From: Hexactinellida sp. DTS-2022
Lineage: Eukaryota; Porifera; Hexactinellida
DNA length: 64,000 bases
Direction: 5' to 3'
Assembly (NCBI GenBank): GCA_028753945.1
Contig: JAPNXP010000003.1
Location: 3,038,001-3,102,000, forward strand
Positions 20,881-61,603 of this stretch are shown piece after piece (positions within the stretch are counted from its first letter, which is position 1; each line of letters begins with the position of its first letter). A program made the translations under genes and the position numbers. A model generated the notes under the pieces. It worked only from the letters and a program-made list of their open reading frames with translations, did no database searches and was not told where the DNA came from.

Positions 20881-20960
20881 AAACGTGCAAATAGACTAGG
20901 GTAAAATAGCCGAAATAGAAGACACGAAAAGTGTTTATTTGATTAATACCGTGCTAGCTG

Positions 20961-20994
20961 CACAGTGGGCAAAAAGTGGCTGTCAAGTGGAAAT
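20961..20994 (+). repeat. left terminal inverted repeat (long-spacer form)
   Basis: Reads CACAGTGGGCAAA, then 10 extra bases AAGTGGCTGT, then CAAGTGGAAAT. The first 13 and last 11 bases equal the right terminus; the 10-bp block is absent there. AAGTGG occurs twice, so the extra block may have arisen by local duplication. It lies on the 3' side of the recombinase gene. Confidence 0.9.
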
Positions 20995-21247
20995 AGGTAT
21001 CTAGGTGGCTGCTAGACCTATAAAATATATTATTAGCCTATGGGTTATCGACCATTCTGAATCGATTGGTGCATCTAATTTTTTTGTATGGCTTCAGAAT
21101 TTTATTATATGCCGTCATCGCAAATTTCCAAAAAAATTACATTATTATGAAATCAATTCTATTTGAAATATAATCAAATTCCAATTACGATTACAAGTCC
21201 ACACTTGTCTAAGAGTGTTAATTAATTAGTAAAGAATTAACTAATAG

Positions 21248-23337
21248 TTATTGCTCTATTGGACTAGTAGTTTTACAACTTAGTTTGCAGATATGGCTTA
21301 ACTCTCCACACTTTTGACACCTTATGATATTCCGAAATGAGTCCAATACAGGGTCACTTTGACTGAGAAGACGGACCATAATGTCTCTTGTATTCAAAGT
21401 AAAGGAATTTTACGCGCTAGATGTTCGCGATATCTTCGAATGAGCTTATTGGAAGCTTCAACTCCCTCTTCTGAAAAACTTTTCAAACCGTATCCATCAT
21501 TGCATTCCTTGATTAATTCTGCGCAATGGGCTAACAGTTTGTGTAGTGATGGAGTAATATTAGCCCATGGGAAGTAGATTAAGATGAACTCGTATGTTTC
21601 ACGGCAAACTATATCAAGTTGATCTGTGTTGATTTCCCTACTGCAGCTAAAAGTGCGCAAAATGGCAGACAAATTGCTCTGTATCTTGATCAAAGAATTA
21701 TGATATTCGGTTGGAATCAAGGAACTTATCCAATGGATAAAGTTGTTCTTGTCACTGAAGCATTGTCGCGCGATGTTCCCGATAGAAGTCGTCCCCCCAT
21801 CACTCGTTGGTTGATCAATCTTTAAGCCAGTCTTCTCTTGTAAAAAGCTTCGAACAAATTTCATTGATGTTTGCACTTTCACAGATGTTGGTGACCATTT
21901 TCTTGAACCAGAATGTAAGTGATAAACAAGTATCATGAACCAACGGAAAACACAGGTATATGAATGGAGTGGAGATGCAGAGATAACGTCTATATCGGAG
22001 ACTGGTTCGTGTGTCAATCCGAATCTCTTCTGTGATGGAAGTGAGAGAAATTCAACCCTATCAACTTGAGAAAATATTTCTTTGGCCGCCGAAATGGTCC
22101 TGTTCATGGGAAATCCTGATCTAACTATCTCTAAATCATGGATTTGATGAGCGGTAGCAGTGCATAGTTGGCATTTTGCACCACCGGCACCCGTTAGTAT
22201 ACCTGACATTTTCCCATCAAACATGGTACGGAACACTTTTACTTTAATTATTCCTTGGTCTAACTCAATCCCATACTGTTCGATGATTGATGTTCCAGGA
22301 TTAATATAGGAATCCATTAGAAATCTCACATTATCTTCGTTTTCCTTCATCGCAACTAAGGCAATAGGCCTGACTTGAAAAGGTGAATTCGGTATTGTGT
22401 TGACCCAAATTTCACAGCCAGCACAGTCCTGAATAGAAATCATTTTAAAAGCGTATAAGAGGAAATTTTTTGAACTGAGACTTGGACTAGGTTGGAGTTG
22501 GTTATAGATTTGGTGGGAGCCAGAACCATCCAAACCATCAGATATCTTCATGCTCAGAGGAAATCGGTCTGCGGATAATTTGGGAAGTATCCCAAGCAAT
22601 CTAGAAACGGTCTGCAGTAAAATTCTACCGTATGGGATTCGAATTCCGATGACACAGTCACTCTTTATACAAACGAGCTCTAGCACATTAGCAAGTGTGA
22701 TTTCTGTACGGTAACGAGAAACTTCTAGATACGGAGGAAATATGATATTTTCTGATTTTAACAGTTTTATTAGATCGATGTATTTTCTCTTCCCGATTTC
22801 CAATTGGTCTAAAAGGAATGCAGATTTGTCAATTGGGAGTCGTTGACCTGATTTACCAAAAGACCCTGTAGAAATGATCTCTTTGCAAAAGGAAGCAGTT
22901 GTTATGTCATGTTCGGAACTAGAAACTAACTGAAGACCATACGAAGCGATAGTCTTACAATCAACATCTTCTTTCGCAGCTAGTGTTTTGATCTAATTTA
23001 TTAGAGGAGATAATCGAACTTTCAATCCCTTAATAGTCAACTGGGAGAGCGGTTTAATAAATTCTTTCGAGATTTCGGCTACAAAAATAGTTTTATCATC
23101 CGAAATTCTTTTCTTTGAAGGATTTTGTACAGATCTTGAATAAAATAGCATGTCTTCCCATGAAGATACATCGCTGTTTTTCCTGAAAGTACTTCTCTCG
23201 GATCTGAGGTTTCGAAATTTCCTATATATCAAGTTCTCTTCACTTTGGGAAAGTTGAAACCTATCAATGAATGCATCAGTTGCATCTTTAATAGTTGATT
23301 TAGAACTGAGGAAGTCGAGGGCATCTTTGTTATTCAT
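21248..23337 (-). pseudogene. RAG1-like recombinase, nearly intact
   Basis: About 690 codons, comparable to the RAG1 core (625 residues). The ATG at 23335-23337 opens 114 codons; an in-frame TAG (22993-22995) interrupts; the same frame then runs open to 21394. Counting from the TTG at 22801-22803 as residue 1: Asp89 in SDGLDGSGSH (RAG1 D600), Asp196 in FDGKMSG (D708), Cys211/Cys214 in CQLC (C727/C730), His421/His426 in HKLLAH (H937/H942) and Glu449 in FSEEGVEASNK (E962). After HLARK a frameshift near 21400 moves the tail to another frame (IMVRLLSQSDPVLDSF), ending in a C-x2-C-G-x3-H-x5-C cluster (CQKCGELSH...C) like the Cys/His tail described for invertebrate RAG1-like proteins. It would cut at the CACAGTG ends. 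Homology to RAG1 is clear. RAGL versus Transib is inferred, the tail favouring RAGL. No RING-type N-terminus is seen. Confidence 0.92.
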
Positions 23338-23660
23338 TTTAACTGCTAAATATATTATGTACTTAATTAATAAATTATTTTGTATAAAATTTATTATTCC
23401 TTAATTAAAAATGTAATATTTTCCATGGTTTAAAGTCAATAGATGACCCCAGTCGCTCCTTTTCGCGCATCTAGATTACTTTTTAATTTGAAGGTATCAT
23501 CATAACCTTTCATTTTAAATGTAAAAACGAATTGCTCCTGATTGCTCTCAAAAAATCCATGAACAATATTGAAAATTAGTAAATGCGTCCGAATCATAAA
23601 ATTTTAGTCGGAATGTATGATAATTTTAGATTATATAAGAAGATATAATGCATTCATGTA

Positions 23661-24160
23661 CAGTGCAACCTCTATAAGTGGGGTCTCTATAAATGGGGAA
23701 CCTCCATAAGTGGGGAATTTTTTTACCATATTCGTATACATCCATACAAATGAACCTCTATAAGCGGGGAAATGGGGAATGGGGGACCATAAATTTCAAG
23801 GAGTTTTTATCTGCATACAAAACAACCTCCATAAATGGTGGGAATGGACAAATCCTAACATGATTCTTATAAAATAATACAATATTTCCAATAAATCGAC
23901 TCTAAAGTTCTACAGAAAAAATATTTTCGATTGATCTACTCTGATGTTTTTAGAAGAAATCACCTAGTGTAGATTAGCAGTTAACTAAATTGTCATAATA
24001 TACAAATAATAACTATAACGTGCATTAATGTGTGTGTTATATGAATACTTTGTATAATATAGCATATATAATGTTTTTCCAATTGAATTTTATAACCGGG
24101 GAATGGGGGGCAATTGAAATTTTCGCCGTCCCATGCTCCCCACTTATAGAGGTTCCACTG
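23661..24160. mobile_element. Tc1/mariner (pogo-like) MITE nested in the RAG1-like element
   Basis: TA-flanked 500 bp. Ends CAGTGCAACCTCTATAAGTG and CACTTATAGAGGTTCCACTG. Repeated ATAAGTGGGGA/ATAAATGGGG motifs. The 37439-38356 element is the same family. Confidence 0.85.
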
Positions 24161-24438
24161 TATATTGATTTCAGTACATGCCAATGAGTATGAAACGTCG
24201 TGATAAAGCTAACTTGAATATTTCATCAACATAATATAATTTGATCGACTTTGATATTGCAATTCTGAAACCACAAAAATATCTTTTTTTAGAATTGTTG
24301 TAACATGATGATCTCATTATACATAACTCTTGATCAAGAATATTTGTCAGCACAATAAATTGGATTTTTAGGTTTTCATTTATGCTGAAAACAATGGCAT
24401 TAATTTAGAGTCAATCTGAGGTGGTCGAAAAATGCTCC

Positions 24439-24462
24439 ATTTCCACTTGTTTGCCCACTGTG
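24439..24462 (-). repeat. right terminal inverted repeat (short-spacer form)
   Basis: On the minus strand it reads CACAGTGGGCAAA directly followed by CAAGTGGAAAT, without the 10-bp block of the left end. It lies upstream (5') of the recombinase gene. Confidence 0.9.
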
Positions 24463-25065
24463 AGCTGACTTTACTTTATATTGAGATACATATAAATATA
24501 CTAAAATGGTTAAAAATTGGTATTACTAAGCCGAAGCACGTACTAAGTACTACTAAGTACTAACCCAGTTACGTACTAACTGAGTTATAATGTAGTACAT
24601 AAATGTATACAAAACGCAATTAACTCTGTCAATTGAAGTTTAATCAACGTTTAATGCTGATATTCGTAATCAGCATAAAATTTCAAGTCATTAAGGGGTC
24701 ACATGACCATGTTTGGGAGGGAGAACATTCCTTGACAACGCTGGAATGTAACACATTCCATTCTCAAATATTGTTTCTACCCTATCGAGTGACCCCTCTT
24801 TCTTCACCGCACAGTAATTTGAGAATAACTATGCTTATACGTATAAACACTCTACGAGGTCATCTAGCAAGTATTCGCGAGAGCGGGCTTTTGTCCGTCT
24901 CTTTCCCACAATTTTTGGCTGCCATCTTGAAAATATTAAAATTTCCTGATGCCTCCATATCCATATCTTCTTGAAATATATTTATCTATGTCTGTGCCAA
25001 TTTTCATGCTTGTATCAAAAATTGTCAATTCACTCCAATATGGCTGTTATGCTGCCCCACTAATA
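24463..25065. repeat. R4 dispersed repeat, reverse copy
   Basis: Reverse complement of 17925-18460 with small differences, ending GCTGCCCCACTAATAG. Its outer edge (GACTTTACTTTATATTGAG) is where the RAG1-like transposon is inserted. The 113-residue frame at 24633 mirrors the frame in the other copy and is not supported as a gene. Confidence 0.7.
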
Positions 25066-25789: not shown

Positions 25790-26620
25790 TACCAGTGGAA
25801 TAGTTTGATGATGGAGACATTGAAAATTTTCTGGACCATTTTGAAATATGCTCACTTGCGAATGAGTGGAATGCGGGCAAGCAGTCATTGATGATAGTTA
25901 CTTGTTTGAGGGGCGAAGCCTTAGAAGTGTTTAAAAAGCTGGATTTGGAGAGCAGATTGAATTTTGATCAGTTAGAGACAAATTATTGAGCGTTTCAAGC
26001 CAGAGGATACGAAATTACTTCATTGAGTAAATTCCAAAGTAGATCTCTTCACCCAAGTGAAACACCACAGAAGTATTTATACGAACTTAAGGGTCTTTTG
26101 AGGAAGGCATTTCCGGAAATGTCTATGGAAGCAAAGGAACAGCTGTTATTCGAACAGTATATTCGTGGGTTACCCAGACAAATTTATGAGAATATTAGGC
26201 TTTCCCCGGATATCACTACTTCTGAAGGAGCAATGAAGCGAGCACAAATACTAATTCGTTTACAAAATGAATCTTCTGGAAGAGTCGAAGGAGATCAATT
26301 CAGTAAAGGCACCCGAGGAATTCACGTGAAAGAGAATTTTATGGCTGATAAAGTTGACAGGAAGCTGGTGAATGAGGCAGTTAAACAAATAACTGAGCGG
26401 TTTAGTATACTAGTTGGTAATGAGAACGAAAATAGCATATGTGCTGTTGATAGACGCCGTAACCAATGGAGAAATGAACTAAAGGGGAAGGTGGTTGGAT
26501 ACGAACGCTCTGGTCCAAGAGGCTATGAAAGGGAGAAGAGAGAAAGAGCGATTAGATGTTATACGTATGTGTCGAGGCGAAGGACACATAGCAAGGGAGT
26601 GCGCCAATTATAGTGCACAT
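25790..26620 (+). pseudogene. gag: Ty3/gypsy Gag, broken
   Basis: The nucleocapsid/capsid precursor of the retroelement. The N-terminal part (about 25800-25988) has the Gag-like stretch NFLDHFEICSLANEW and ends in a stop at 25987-25989. The frame then reopens for 196 codons (26023-26613) with YELKGLLRKAFPEMS and EQYIRGLPRQIYENI. The C-terminal zinc knuckle is split by a frameshift: its first Cys is in one frame and CRGEGHIAREC in another (about 26556-26610). Confidence 0.8.
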
Positions 26621-26844
26621 GGCGAGAAATTTCCGAATAGGGCACATGGCGAGAAATTTCCCGAAGCCTCCAACGGGGAATCCTTTAAACTAGATGGGGT
26701 TCGTTGGGCGAGTCGAGACGGAACCCCAGAAATTCTACAGACTCCATGTTATGCAAATTATTCGAATATAGTTGTCGATTCAGCGGTTTCATCAATACCA
26801 TTCCATGAAGATCATATTGCTTAATGCAAGTCAGTAGAAACTCC

Positions 26845-27205
26845 AAAAGATATACTTGAAAGTGGGAGGAGTCAAGTGTAGTGCATTACTTGACAGTGGA
26901 GCCAGTGCTAGCCTAATCTCCAACCATATCTTCAACAAATGTTCAAACAATCTTTCAAGTAATGTGAATTCCAGGGAGTTAATCACAGCAACGGGAAATC
27001 AGATGAATCTATTAGGTAAGCTCGTTTAGAGATATCTATTGGTAACATTAATTGCCTGCAAGAATTCCTCGTAACTTCGCCATTGGTAGAAGATTACATT
27101 TGGGAATGGATTTTCTTGTGAAGCATCGAGTTGATTTAGATTTTGACTGTGGAGTTGATTCGCGATGGTTGATTACCCCATATACAATGCAAATAATAAC
27201 AATAG
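26845..27205 (+). pseudogene. pol: Ty3/gypsy protease region
   Basis: An aspartic protease with the catalytic motif LLDSGASASLIS (Asp codon at 26892) and a degenerate second motif near 27110 (WEWIFL for the usual LGMDFL). Frameshifts and stops are present. It is followed by an insertion-like sequence at about 27205-27345. Confidence 0.7.
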
Positions 27206-27345
27206 GAGGCATAGTTTAGCTTAGAATTATATTTAGAAACTGGCCTTCTCGTTTCATGGCCTTCTCGGCGACATATTTAGCCGTATATTAAGTAGGCCAT
27301 GGGGGACCACAGTTAGGAATGGTCATGATGTGTGAAAAGAGGGAT
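27205..27345. repeat. R5 foldback arm within the gypsy element
   Basis: Contains TTAGAAACTGGCC, GGCCTTCTCGGCGACATAT and AGCCGTATATTAAGTAGGCC, the arm sequence of the foldback elements at 35756-36657 and 36903-37183. Only one arm is present here. Confidence 0.65.
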
Positions 27346-27573
27346 TGAAAATCTTCTACAGCTCAAAATGTAGAGTATACCCCTTACAAGTCTTGTTCCG
27401 TGCGCATTGGATTGTGTGATTCACAACTATCAGACTCGTTTGACTTGGACGAGAATGATGATTGGGAGTGCCGAGGAATTGTACCTGATTATCGTAATTC
27501 TCCAGTATTGAATCGCCGGTTATCTCTCCTGACTTCCAAGAAGCAAGAAGTACTAGACGAATATCGAGATCTG

Positions 27574-28179
27574 GGCCCGTATTCACTAAGAAGTTAAGTA
27601 CGTACTTAGTACTTAAGTACTAAGTATGTACTTAAGTCGTATTCACTAAGATTGGTATTCACTAAGATTTAAGTGTGTACTTAAGTACATACTTAAGTAC
27701 AAAACTTAAGTAACCTACTAAGTTGACTTAACTTATAATAATTTTCTTTTATTGACTCTTTAGACGTTGGTGTTTAATTAGAACATTGTATTAGATTTCT
27801 AGTAGTACTTGCTTTACTTTAGGGGAAGTTTATGATTCTATTTTACATTTATTACAATTGGTTGTTGTTTTCTAAAAGTCTGTTTTTTCTCAAGCACAAA
27901 AATCACAGGAACTTCATTGAGAATATTCTTTTTAAAGTTAAATGAATACAGCAAGCTATTACAATAGCATTCCATACACTAATATGCTATGCTATTAAAT
28001 ATAATTCAATAAATATAATTCAATTTAGTACTTAAGTACGTACTTAGTTAAGTATGTACTTAAGTACAACAATATTTCTTAGTGAATACGACTTAAGTAT
28101 GTACTTAACTAAGTACGTACTTAGTACTTAAGTATATACTTAGTACTTAAGTACTAAGTAATCTTAGTGAATACGGGCC
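27574..28179. mobile_element. PIF/Harbinger-like MITE in the gypsy pol
   Basis: 606 bp. Terminal inverted repeats GGCCCGTATTCACTAAGA, 3-bp target duplication CTG (27571-27573 and 28180-28182). Subterminal arrays of AAGTACGTACTTAAGT. With one CTG copy counted, the pol frame is continuous across the site. The superfamily call rests on duplication size and terminus. Confidence 0.8.
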
Positions 28180-28182
28180 CTG

Positions 28183-29400
28183 TTCTTTTCAGTTCCTGGC
28201 GTTGCAAAGGTAGAGGAATTTCAGATCAGAACTGGTGATTCTGGGGCAATAAGAACGCCTCCTAGAATGGTTCCACACGAATACCAGCAAGAAGTCCATT
28301 TGCATATCGAAGAAATGCTTCGAAGGAACATCATCAGAGTCTCGAGCAGTTCTGGGATTTCTCCTCCATTAATGGTTAACAAAAAGGATGGTACCATACG
28401 CTTCTGTATCGAGTATCGGGCTCTTAATAGGGTTACACAAAAGGATGCTTATCCTCTTACACTTCCAGATCAAGTTCAGGACAAATTATTTGGTATGAAG
28501 TATTTCACGAAACTGGATCTTAACTCCGGCTATTGGCAAACACCAGTACGTGAATGTGCTAAAGAAAAACCGCTTTCTCTCCTGGCCCGGGAATGGGGCT
28601 TTTCGAGTTCAACGTGTTGCCCTTTGGATTAACAGGCGGACCAAGCGCGTTCCAACGTACAATGGATAAGGTGTTGCGTGGGTTGGAGAAATTCAAAGAT
28701 AACTTCATCGATGATATTCTTGTTTATTCGCCGGATAAGGAATCACACAAAAGAGCATTAAGGATGATATTCGATAGGCTTAGACAGTCTAATCTGAGGT
28801 TAAGGGGTAAGAATTGCGAGATTGGAAGAAGTAAAGTGACCTATTTAGGACACACGTTTTTCCGCTACGGAATAGAGCCTGAGATTTCCAAAATAGATTC
28901 AATAGTCAATTGGTCTCGACCAGGTTCGCAAAAAGAAGTGATACAGTTCTTGGGTTTAGCGAGTTATTATAGGAGATATATTCAAGACTTTTCCACCATT
29001 GCTAATCCTCTGAATCATTTACTATGCAAGAATGTCCCCTTTGTGTGGAGAGTAGAAACAGCTTTTATTAAGCTTAAGGAATCACTTTTGTCCTCGCCTG
29101 TGCTGCAAATGTCCAGATTTTAACAAAAAGTTCCAGTTGTACACAGATGCCAGTGGGACAGGCTTGGGTGCAGTTCTCGAACAAGAAGGTAATGTAATTG
29201 CATACTTCAGTAGAACTATACGAATTGCTGAACGCAATTACAGCACGATAGAACAAGAATGCCTTGCTATTATTGAATCTCTAAAACGTTTCAGACATTA
29301 CTTGATTGGGAGAAAATTCGAGACATTCACGGACCACAAACCATTGGAGTGGTTGCACACTCAAAAAGCTGTGGGTAGATATGGCGATGGGCAGTGCTGA
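28183..29400 (+). pseudogene. pol: Ty3/gypsy reverse transcriptase and RNase H
   Basis: RT motifs in order: RFCIEYRALNRVT (about 28400), FTKLDLNSGYWQ (about 28505), then after a frameshift near 28600 FNVLPFGLTGGPSAFQ, the active-site FIDDILVYS (about 28708) and the thumb region LGLASYYRRYIQDFS. A stop at 29121 precedes RNase H (YTDASGTGLGAVLEQEG at about 29140; DHKPLEWL). This makes the cDNA of the retroelement; here it is inactive because of the frameshift and stops. Confidence 0.88.
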
Positions 29401-61200: not shown

Positions 61201-61459
61201 TTATAGGTGAGGAATATTTACGCACTATTAATATATATGATGTATATTCAATTTAACGCTTCTCTCTCATATGAAATATGAGTTGTGGGCAATTATGTGG
61301 ATTTTAATACTTTCAAAAATGTGATAATTACGTATTAACTTTCACATCTGAAGTCATAGAAAAATCTAATTTAGCAATGGATTCTATGAATACGATTCCC
61401 CATATTTAAATAATATAGTTTAATGCTCTATCTTATACCTAAATAGCTACTTCCATGAT

Positions 61460-61603
61460 TTGACCATTTCGTGCCACTGTGCGGAGTTTGGCCCGATTAT
61501 CCCATTAGTATTAGCTTCTATGGAAAAGATTTCCCTGTGGTGGTTTGTCTCATTTAAGCAAAACTCCCGATTAACCGGTGTCCCAATTAAGCGGAGTATA
61601 CAG
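61460..61603. mobile_element. pogo-like MITE end, reverse orientation
   Basis: AAACTCCCGATTAACCGGTG, then GTCCCAATTAAGCGGAGTAT and CAG before TA. Complement of the end type at 58987. Confidence 0.45.

Follow-up and report, generated by a model that had tools for sequence, protein, structure and literature searches.

A probable recently active, RAG2-less Transib-type transposon with asymmetric heptamer ends in a glass sponge genome

A transposon with one RAG1-like gene

A 64,000-nucleotide stretch of the genome of the glass sponge Hexactinellida sp. DTS-2022 (assembly GCA_028753945.1, contig JAPNXP010000003.1, positions 3,038,001 to 3,102,000 of the forward strand; hereafter, the window) contains a DNA transposon with a single RAG1-like transposase gene. 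The complete element occupies window positions 20961-24462 and is flanked on both sides by AGCTG (Table 1). Its left terminus opens with CACAGTGGGCAAA... at 20961 and its right terminus closes with ...TTTGCCCACTGTG at 24462, with CACAGTGGGCAAA forming the start of both termini. The heptamer CACAGTGG occurs six times in the window, compared with 0.82 occurrences expected from shuffles.

The gene lies on the minus strand. Its first 114 codons end at an in-frame TAG (22993-22995), which is followed in the same frame by the 532-codon open frame; comparison with relatives showed that this frame stops early, before the tail, as a result of a frame shift. The window copy is dead. It also harbors a nested 501-bp repeat, perhaps pogo/Tigger-like, with inverted ends CAGTGCAACCTCTATAAGTGGGG... 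and with at least 36 further stretches of the genome 96-99% identical to it. A sister copy (L010; C2:3508562-3511558) is 97-98% identical to the window element and does not contain the nested repeat. Without this repeat, the window element measures about 3.0 kb, as do its relatives.

Table 1 Features of the transposon in the window
Feature	Position in window	Strand	Basis
Target-site duplication AGCTG (5 bp), left	20956..20960	.	Direct reading
Long-spacer end, gene 3' side: CACAGTGG and common block CAAGTGGAAATAGG from 23 bp in	20961..20997	+	
Open frame of 532 codons for RAG1-like transposase; catalytic and zinc-binding motifs present, tail lost to shifted frame	21394..22992	-	
SEEGVEASNK, conserved glutamates	21445..21474	-	
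LHKLLAH, conserved histidines	21526..21546	-	
CxxC-to-PLHSY stretch, holding ~35 residues (alpha11-12 region of Tao 2022)	21958..22173	-	
FDGKM, conserved acidic motif of second catalytic region	22207..22221	-	Alignment
DGLDGSG, conserved acidic motif of first catalytic region	22519..22539	-	Alignment with RAG1L and HzTransib-like proteins
First 114 codons of gene, closed by in-frame TAG	22993..23337	-	
Start of NBD-like region, KPLSQLTIKGLKVRL, within first 114 codons	23011-23055	-	
Nested 501-bp repeat with TA flanks, not in sister copy	23660..24160	.	
Short-spacer end, gene 5' side: CACAGTGG and common block CAAGTGGAAATGG from 13 bp in	24437..24462	-	
Target-site duplication AGCTG (5 bp), right	24463..24467	.	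Direct reading

Genome copies and the design of the ends

We examined the ends of 30 loci, consisting of the window and L010-L038. At 15 of these loci, including the window, CACAGTGG was present at both ends together with perfect 5-bp duplications, and the elements so delimited measured 2975-3778 bp. Given that other copies share the CACAGTGG ends and identical 5-bp flanks, a chance origin of the window ends is excluded. Three loci (L012, L020, and L029) possess both ends with a mismatched duplication (4, 5, and 3 mismatches, respectively) and were retained in the offset count described below for their ends only. In L021, the gene-bearing interior is inverted between normal ends, with a perfect 5-bp duplication having been kept.

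An earlier sequence-only reading of the window had described CACAGTG at both ends, the exact AGCTG duplication, and clean boundaries, and had proposed that the genome be searched with the ends and the protein. The heptamers and the duplication were confirmed by direct reading as well as by the loci described above, and the search revealed further copies, which terminate at the same place. With up to three mismatches allowed, the 34-bp end of the window element was found at 3 places in the genome and the 24-bp end at 115 places, compared with none for the reversed control of either. The transposase protein gave at least 96 matches in the 112.4-Mb genome, some of which represent two pieces of a single locus; the top 30 were taken as loci. 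Stop-to-stop open frames of 711-757 codons were present at 11 of the 30 loci, 7 of which also have both ends and the duplications. L017 and L018 lie on different contigs and show 99.8% identity across 2784 bp, and L018 and L019, which have different duplications, show 99.1% identity across 3082 bp. The existence of such near-identical copies indicates that the family moved recently.

In the window element, the sequence CAAGTGGAAAT begins 13 bp in at one end and 23 bp in at the other. A second block, beyond the heptamer, is common to both ends of each element and lies 9-10 bp, or one helical turn, deeper on the gene 3' side. This combination of a short-spacer end with a long-spacer end is conserved across the family. 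A 12-base comparison of 13 subfamily representatives (with the near-copies L010, L019, L022, L027, and L035 excluded) yielded an offset of +9 or +10, with 10-12 of the 12 letters matching, for 10 subfamilies including that of the window. L038 reached 8 of 12 letters and L032 reached 6 of 12, and L021 gave 10 letters at an offset of -9 because of its inverted interior. The mean match was 10.1 letters, versus 5.9 +/- 0.33 in 500 shuffles, none of which gave a value as high; the shuffle maximum at any offset was 7.1.

An identical short/long design characterizes a non-autonomous Transib family that includes L069, L070, and L071 as well as many of the 115 short-end places. Both ends and perfect 5-bp duplications were apparent at three of the six loci fetched for this family (963, 1901, and 818 bp). 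We also counted pairs of facing ends separated by no more than 4 kb among the ends listed, which comprised 100 of 115 short ends and 100 of 173 long ends. The count was 35 for short/long pairs, 0 for long/long, and 1 for short/short, with this lone short/short pair corresponding to the outer ends of two adjacent elements. The outward-facing control for the same ends yielded one pair altogether.

Two side observations concern the heptamer. CACAGTG occurs 10,484 times genome-wide, compared with 7,649 times for the reversed control, with the excess perhaps being attributable to many element ends. A lone long-spacer-like end (CACAGTGG ... GGAAGTAGCTATTTAGG) is located at window positions 61422-61481, and no partner with a matching 5-bp flank was found for it within 5 kb.

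Gene content and placement of the transposase

Intact relatives of the window element encode one RAG1-core-like transposase of ~710 residues. The best sequence match for the window gene was HzTransib (2.6e-19); amphioxus RAG1L matched at 3.4e-9, and the match of the gene to the Pfam RAG1 family (6.6e-5) fell below the cut-off for that family; the sequence-only claim of one RAG1-like gene between the ends was thus upheld. No second gene was found in any of 13 complete relatives scanned (13/13), and the 13 complete elements contain no frames of >123 codons other than transposase pieces. A genome-wide search for the RAG2 family gave no match, but its control gave none either, which makes this absence weak. 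Thirteen of 64 protein matches bear a species name, with all 13 being from Oopsacas minuta, as would fit a glass-sponge host, and two scans for bacterial and viral relatives revealed none.

We aligned 27 rows of the family with 10 RAG1L, 4 RAG1, and 17 HzTransib-like rows. In the tree, the family protein fell outside the RAG1+RAG1L clade (100/100), and a long branch set it apart from the 17 HzTransib-like rows. Midpoint rooting, adopted for drawing only, grouped the family with the HzTransib-like proteins, and a fold comparison does not separate a RAG-type from an HzTransib-type placement. An aligned count running from the second Cys of the CxxC motif up to the conserved His gave 65-67 residues in 27/27 family rows, 64-67 in 9/10 RAG1L rows (67 residues in the tenth, whose His column holds Asp), 64 in 4/4 RAG1 rows, and 30 in 17/17 HzTransib-like rows. 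With truncated rows included, the CCxHC tail was present in 12/27 family, 9/10 RAG1L, 0/4 RAG1, and 0/17 HzTransib-like rows. The pre-RNase H loop of RAG1L is absent from the family in this alignment. A simple NBD pattern was detected in 17/27 family, 11/17 HzTransib-like, 0/10 RAG1L, and 0/4 RAG1 rows, but this pattern is uninformative because several RAG1L and RAG1 rows begin past the NBD region.

The family has the features of the Transib superfamily: ends with a CAC heptamer, a 5-bp duplication, and a single RAG1-core-like gene without a RAG2-like gene. Of the features described for Subgroup I Transibs, the alpha11-12 region is matched by length only, the CTT1 (CCGHC) tail is found in the 12 rows mentioned above and is absent from the window copy itself, which has lost its tail, and asymmetric ends are found in 10/13 subfamilies. 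The features of Subgroup II, namely alpha11-12 loss and a different tail, were not found, nor were those of RAGL elements, namely a RAG2-like gene in the element and a protein inside the RAG1/RAG1L clade. Of the sequence-only reading, membership in the RAG/Transib superfamily, the clean ends, and the consensus V(D)J heptamer are supported. Its terms "RAG-type transposon" and "lineage from which V(D)J recombination arose" are not, given the position of the protein outside the RAG1+RAG1L clade, the absence of a second gene from the 13 complete relatives scanned, and HzTransib as the best match.

With regard to genome context, the window has a GC content of 35%, and eight stretches at the beginning of contig C1 have one of 47.5%. 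Remains of a Ty3-like retroelement at window positions 26023-29123 include part of a reverse transcriptase (Pfam RVT_1, 9e-19) as well as a capsid-like match that is weak and does not reach the cut-off. The genome contains 16 homeodomains. A genome search for wnt gave no match, consistent with the Wnt loss reported for glass sponges (PMC5684314), but its control also gave none, so that this absence, too, is weak.

Interpretation and comparison with known systems

We consider it very likely that the window element is a dead member of a RAG2-less transposon family of Transib type, similar in kind to Subgroup I and active until recently. Its ends would pair as follows. HzTransib and RAG nick DNA 5' of CAC, form hairpins on the flanks, excise the element, and insert it with a 5-bp stagger. 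By analogy with this chemistry, a transposase dimer would grip one short and one long end, nick 5' of CAC, leave hairpins on the flanks as the element is excised, and insert it with the same stagger. The heptamer would be contacted by the catalytic core, and the second block may be read by the NBD-like and tail domains. The one-turn offset might then lead to a preference for pairing short with long, similar to the 12/23 rule, and RAG2 would be unneeded if the family works like other Transibs.

The end offset might instead be a passive relic with no role in end pairing, the element being otherwise as described, and we regard this as a real possibility even if not the one we favor. Several observations weigh against the pairing part of our proposal. 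The copies stem from common masters, and the short/long count consequently reflects faithful retention rather than independent events; moreover, L010, the near-twin of the window element, has an offset of 14 and yet a perfect duplication. Against a mere relic, the offset of 9-10 bp has been held in most subfamilies and also in non-autonomous members of 818-1901 bp.

As for the identity of the element, a true RAGL transposon of the RAG1L lineage that had lost its RAG2L gene would account for the alpha11-12 stretch of the same length as in RAG1 and RAG1L, the CCxHC tail found also in RAG1L, and the asymmetry of the ends, which some RAGL elements show as well. We judge this improbable, given the position outside the RAG1+RAG1L clade, the missing pre-RNase H loop, the best match to HzTransib, and ends that differ from the protostome RAGL consensus CACTWMCAAAC. 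A Transib of the ordinary insect type (Subgroup II, HzTransib-like) acquired by horizontal transfer would likewise have one gene, 5-bp duplications, and heptamer ends, and would fit the grouping under midpoint rooting. The tree nevertheless sets the family apart from the HzTransib-like rows, and this origin, which seems very improbable, is already contradicted by the aligned spacing (65-67 versus 30 residues) and tail (12/27 versus 0/17) characters. Rather than a RAG transposon, the family is best regarded as a Transib of the Subgroup I type, which retains features in common with RAG1L.

The RAG2-less Transib described here combines a RAG2-contact region (by length), a RAG1L-like tail, and the exact consensus heptamer without a RAG2 gene in its elements, and it thereby bears on the origin both of the 12/23 pairing rule and of the RAG2-binding part of RAG1. 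A bolder interpretation, which we put forward as speculative and rather unlikely, is that in an early-branching animal a transposase free of RAG2 is already subject to a 12/23-like rule, whereby ends that are offset by one turn and contain the exact V(D)J heptamer must pair short with long, and that the clade from glass sponges forms a third deep branch alongside the RAG and HzTransib-like branches. If this were true, the heptamer and the pairing rule would be older than RAG2 and immunity. Given that RAG2-free elements with a one-turn offset are present across diverged subfamilies, together with recent intact copies, the family provides a natural RAG2-free system for end-pairing assays.

For comparison with known systems, we drew on published work (PMC7204232, PMC8355894, PMC8289069, PMC10280926, PMC10282587); among the papers listed in our literature search, none appeared to deal with Transib elements of glass sponges. 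Subgroup I Transibs have been described as possessing the alpha11-12 region, which in RAG1 binds RAG2, as well as a CTT1 tail in common with RAG1L and asymmetric ends (PMC9435367). Our family resembles them in its one RAG1-like gene, alpha11-12 region, CTT1-type CCGHC tail, NBD-like region, and asymmetric ends, a likeness to the published description (Tao et al. 2022), and it differs in its glass-sponge host and in ends that bear the exact consensus heptamer CACAGTG. HzTransib and the HzTransib-like proteins of Subgroup II share with it the transposase core, 5-bp duplications, CAC ends, and lack of RAG2, whereas all 17 HzTransib-like rows are ~35 residues shorter in the interval from CxxC to the conserved His and have no CCxHC tail. 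RAGL, ProtoRAG, and Aureococcus RAGL elements are similar with regard to the RAG1 core fold, CCxHC tail, and 5-bp duplications, but they possess RAG2L together with the pre-RNase H loop of RAG1L, and their ends open with CACTATG or CACACCC. The end spacers of Aureococcus RAGL are 4/13, a difference of 9 bp (PMC9435367) that is much like the offset in our family. V(D)J signals share with the family the heptamer CACAGTG and a short/long pair differing by about one helical turn; the second block of the family (GGAAATAG-like) is, however, not the nonamer, and its spacers, judged by eye, are about 5-11 and 15-20 bp, compared with 12 and 23 bp for V(D)J signals.
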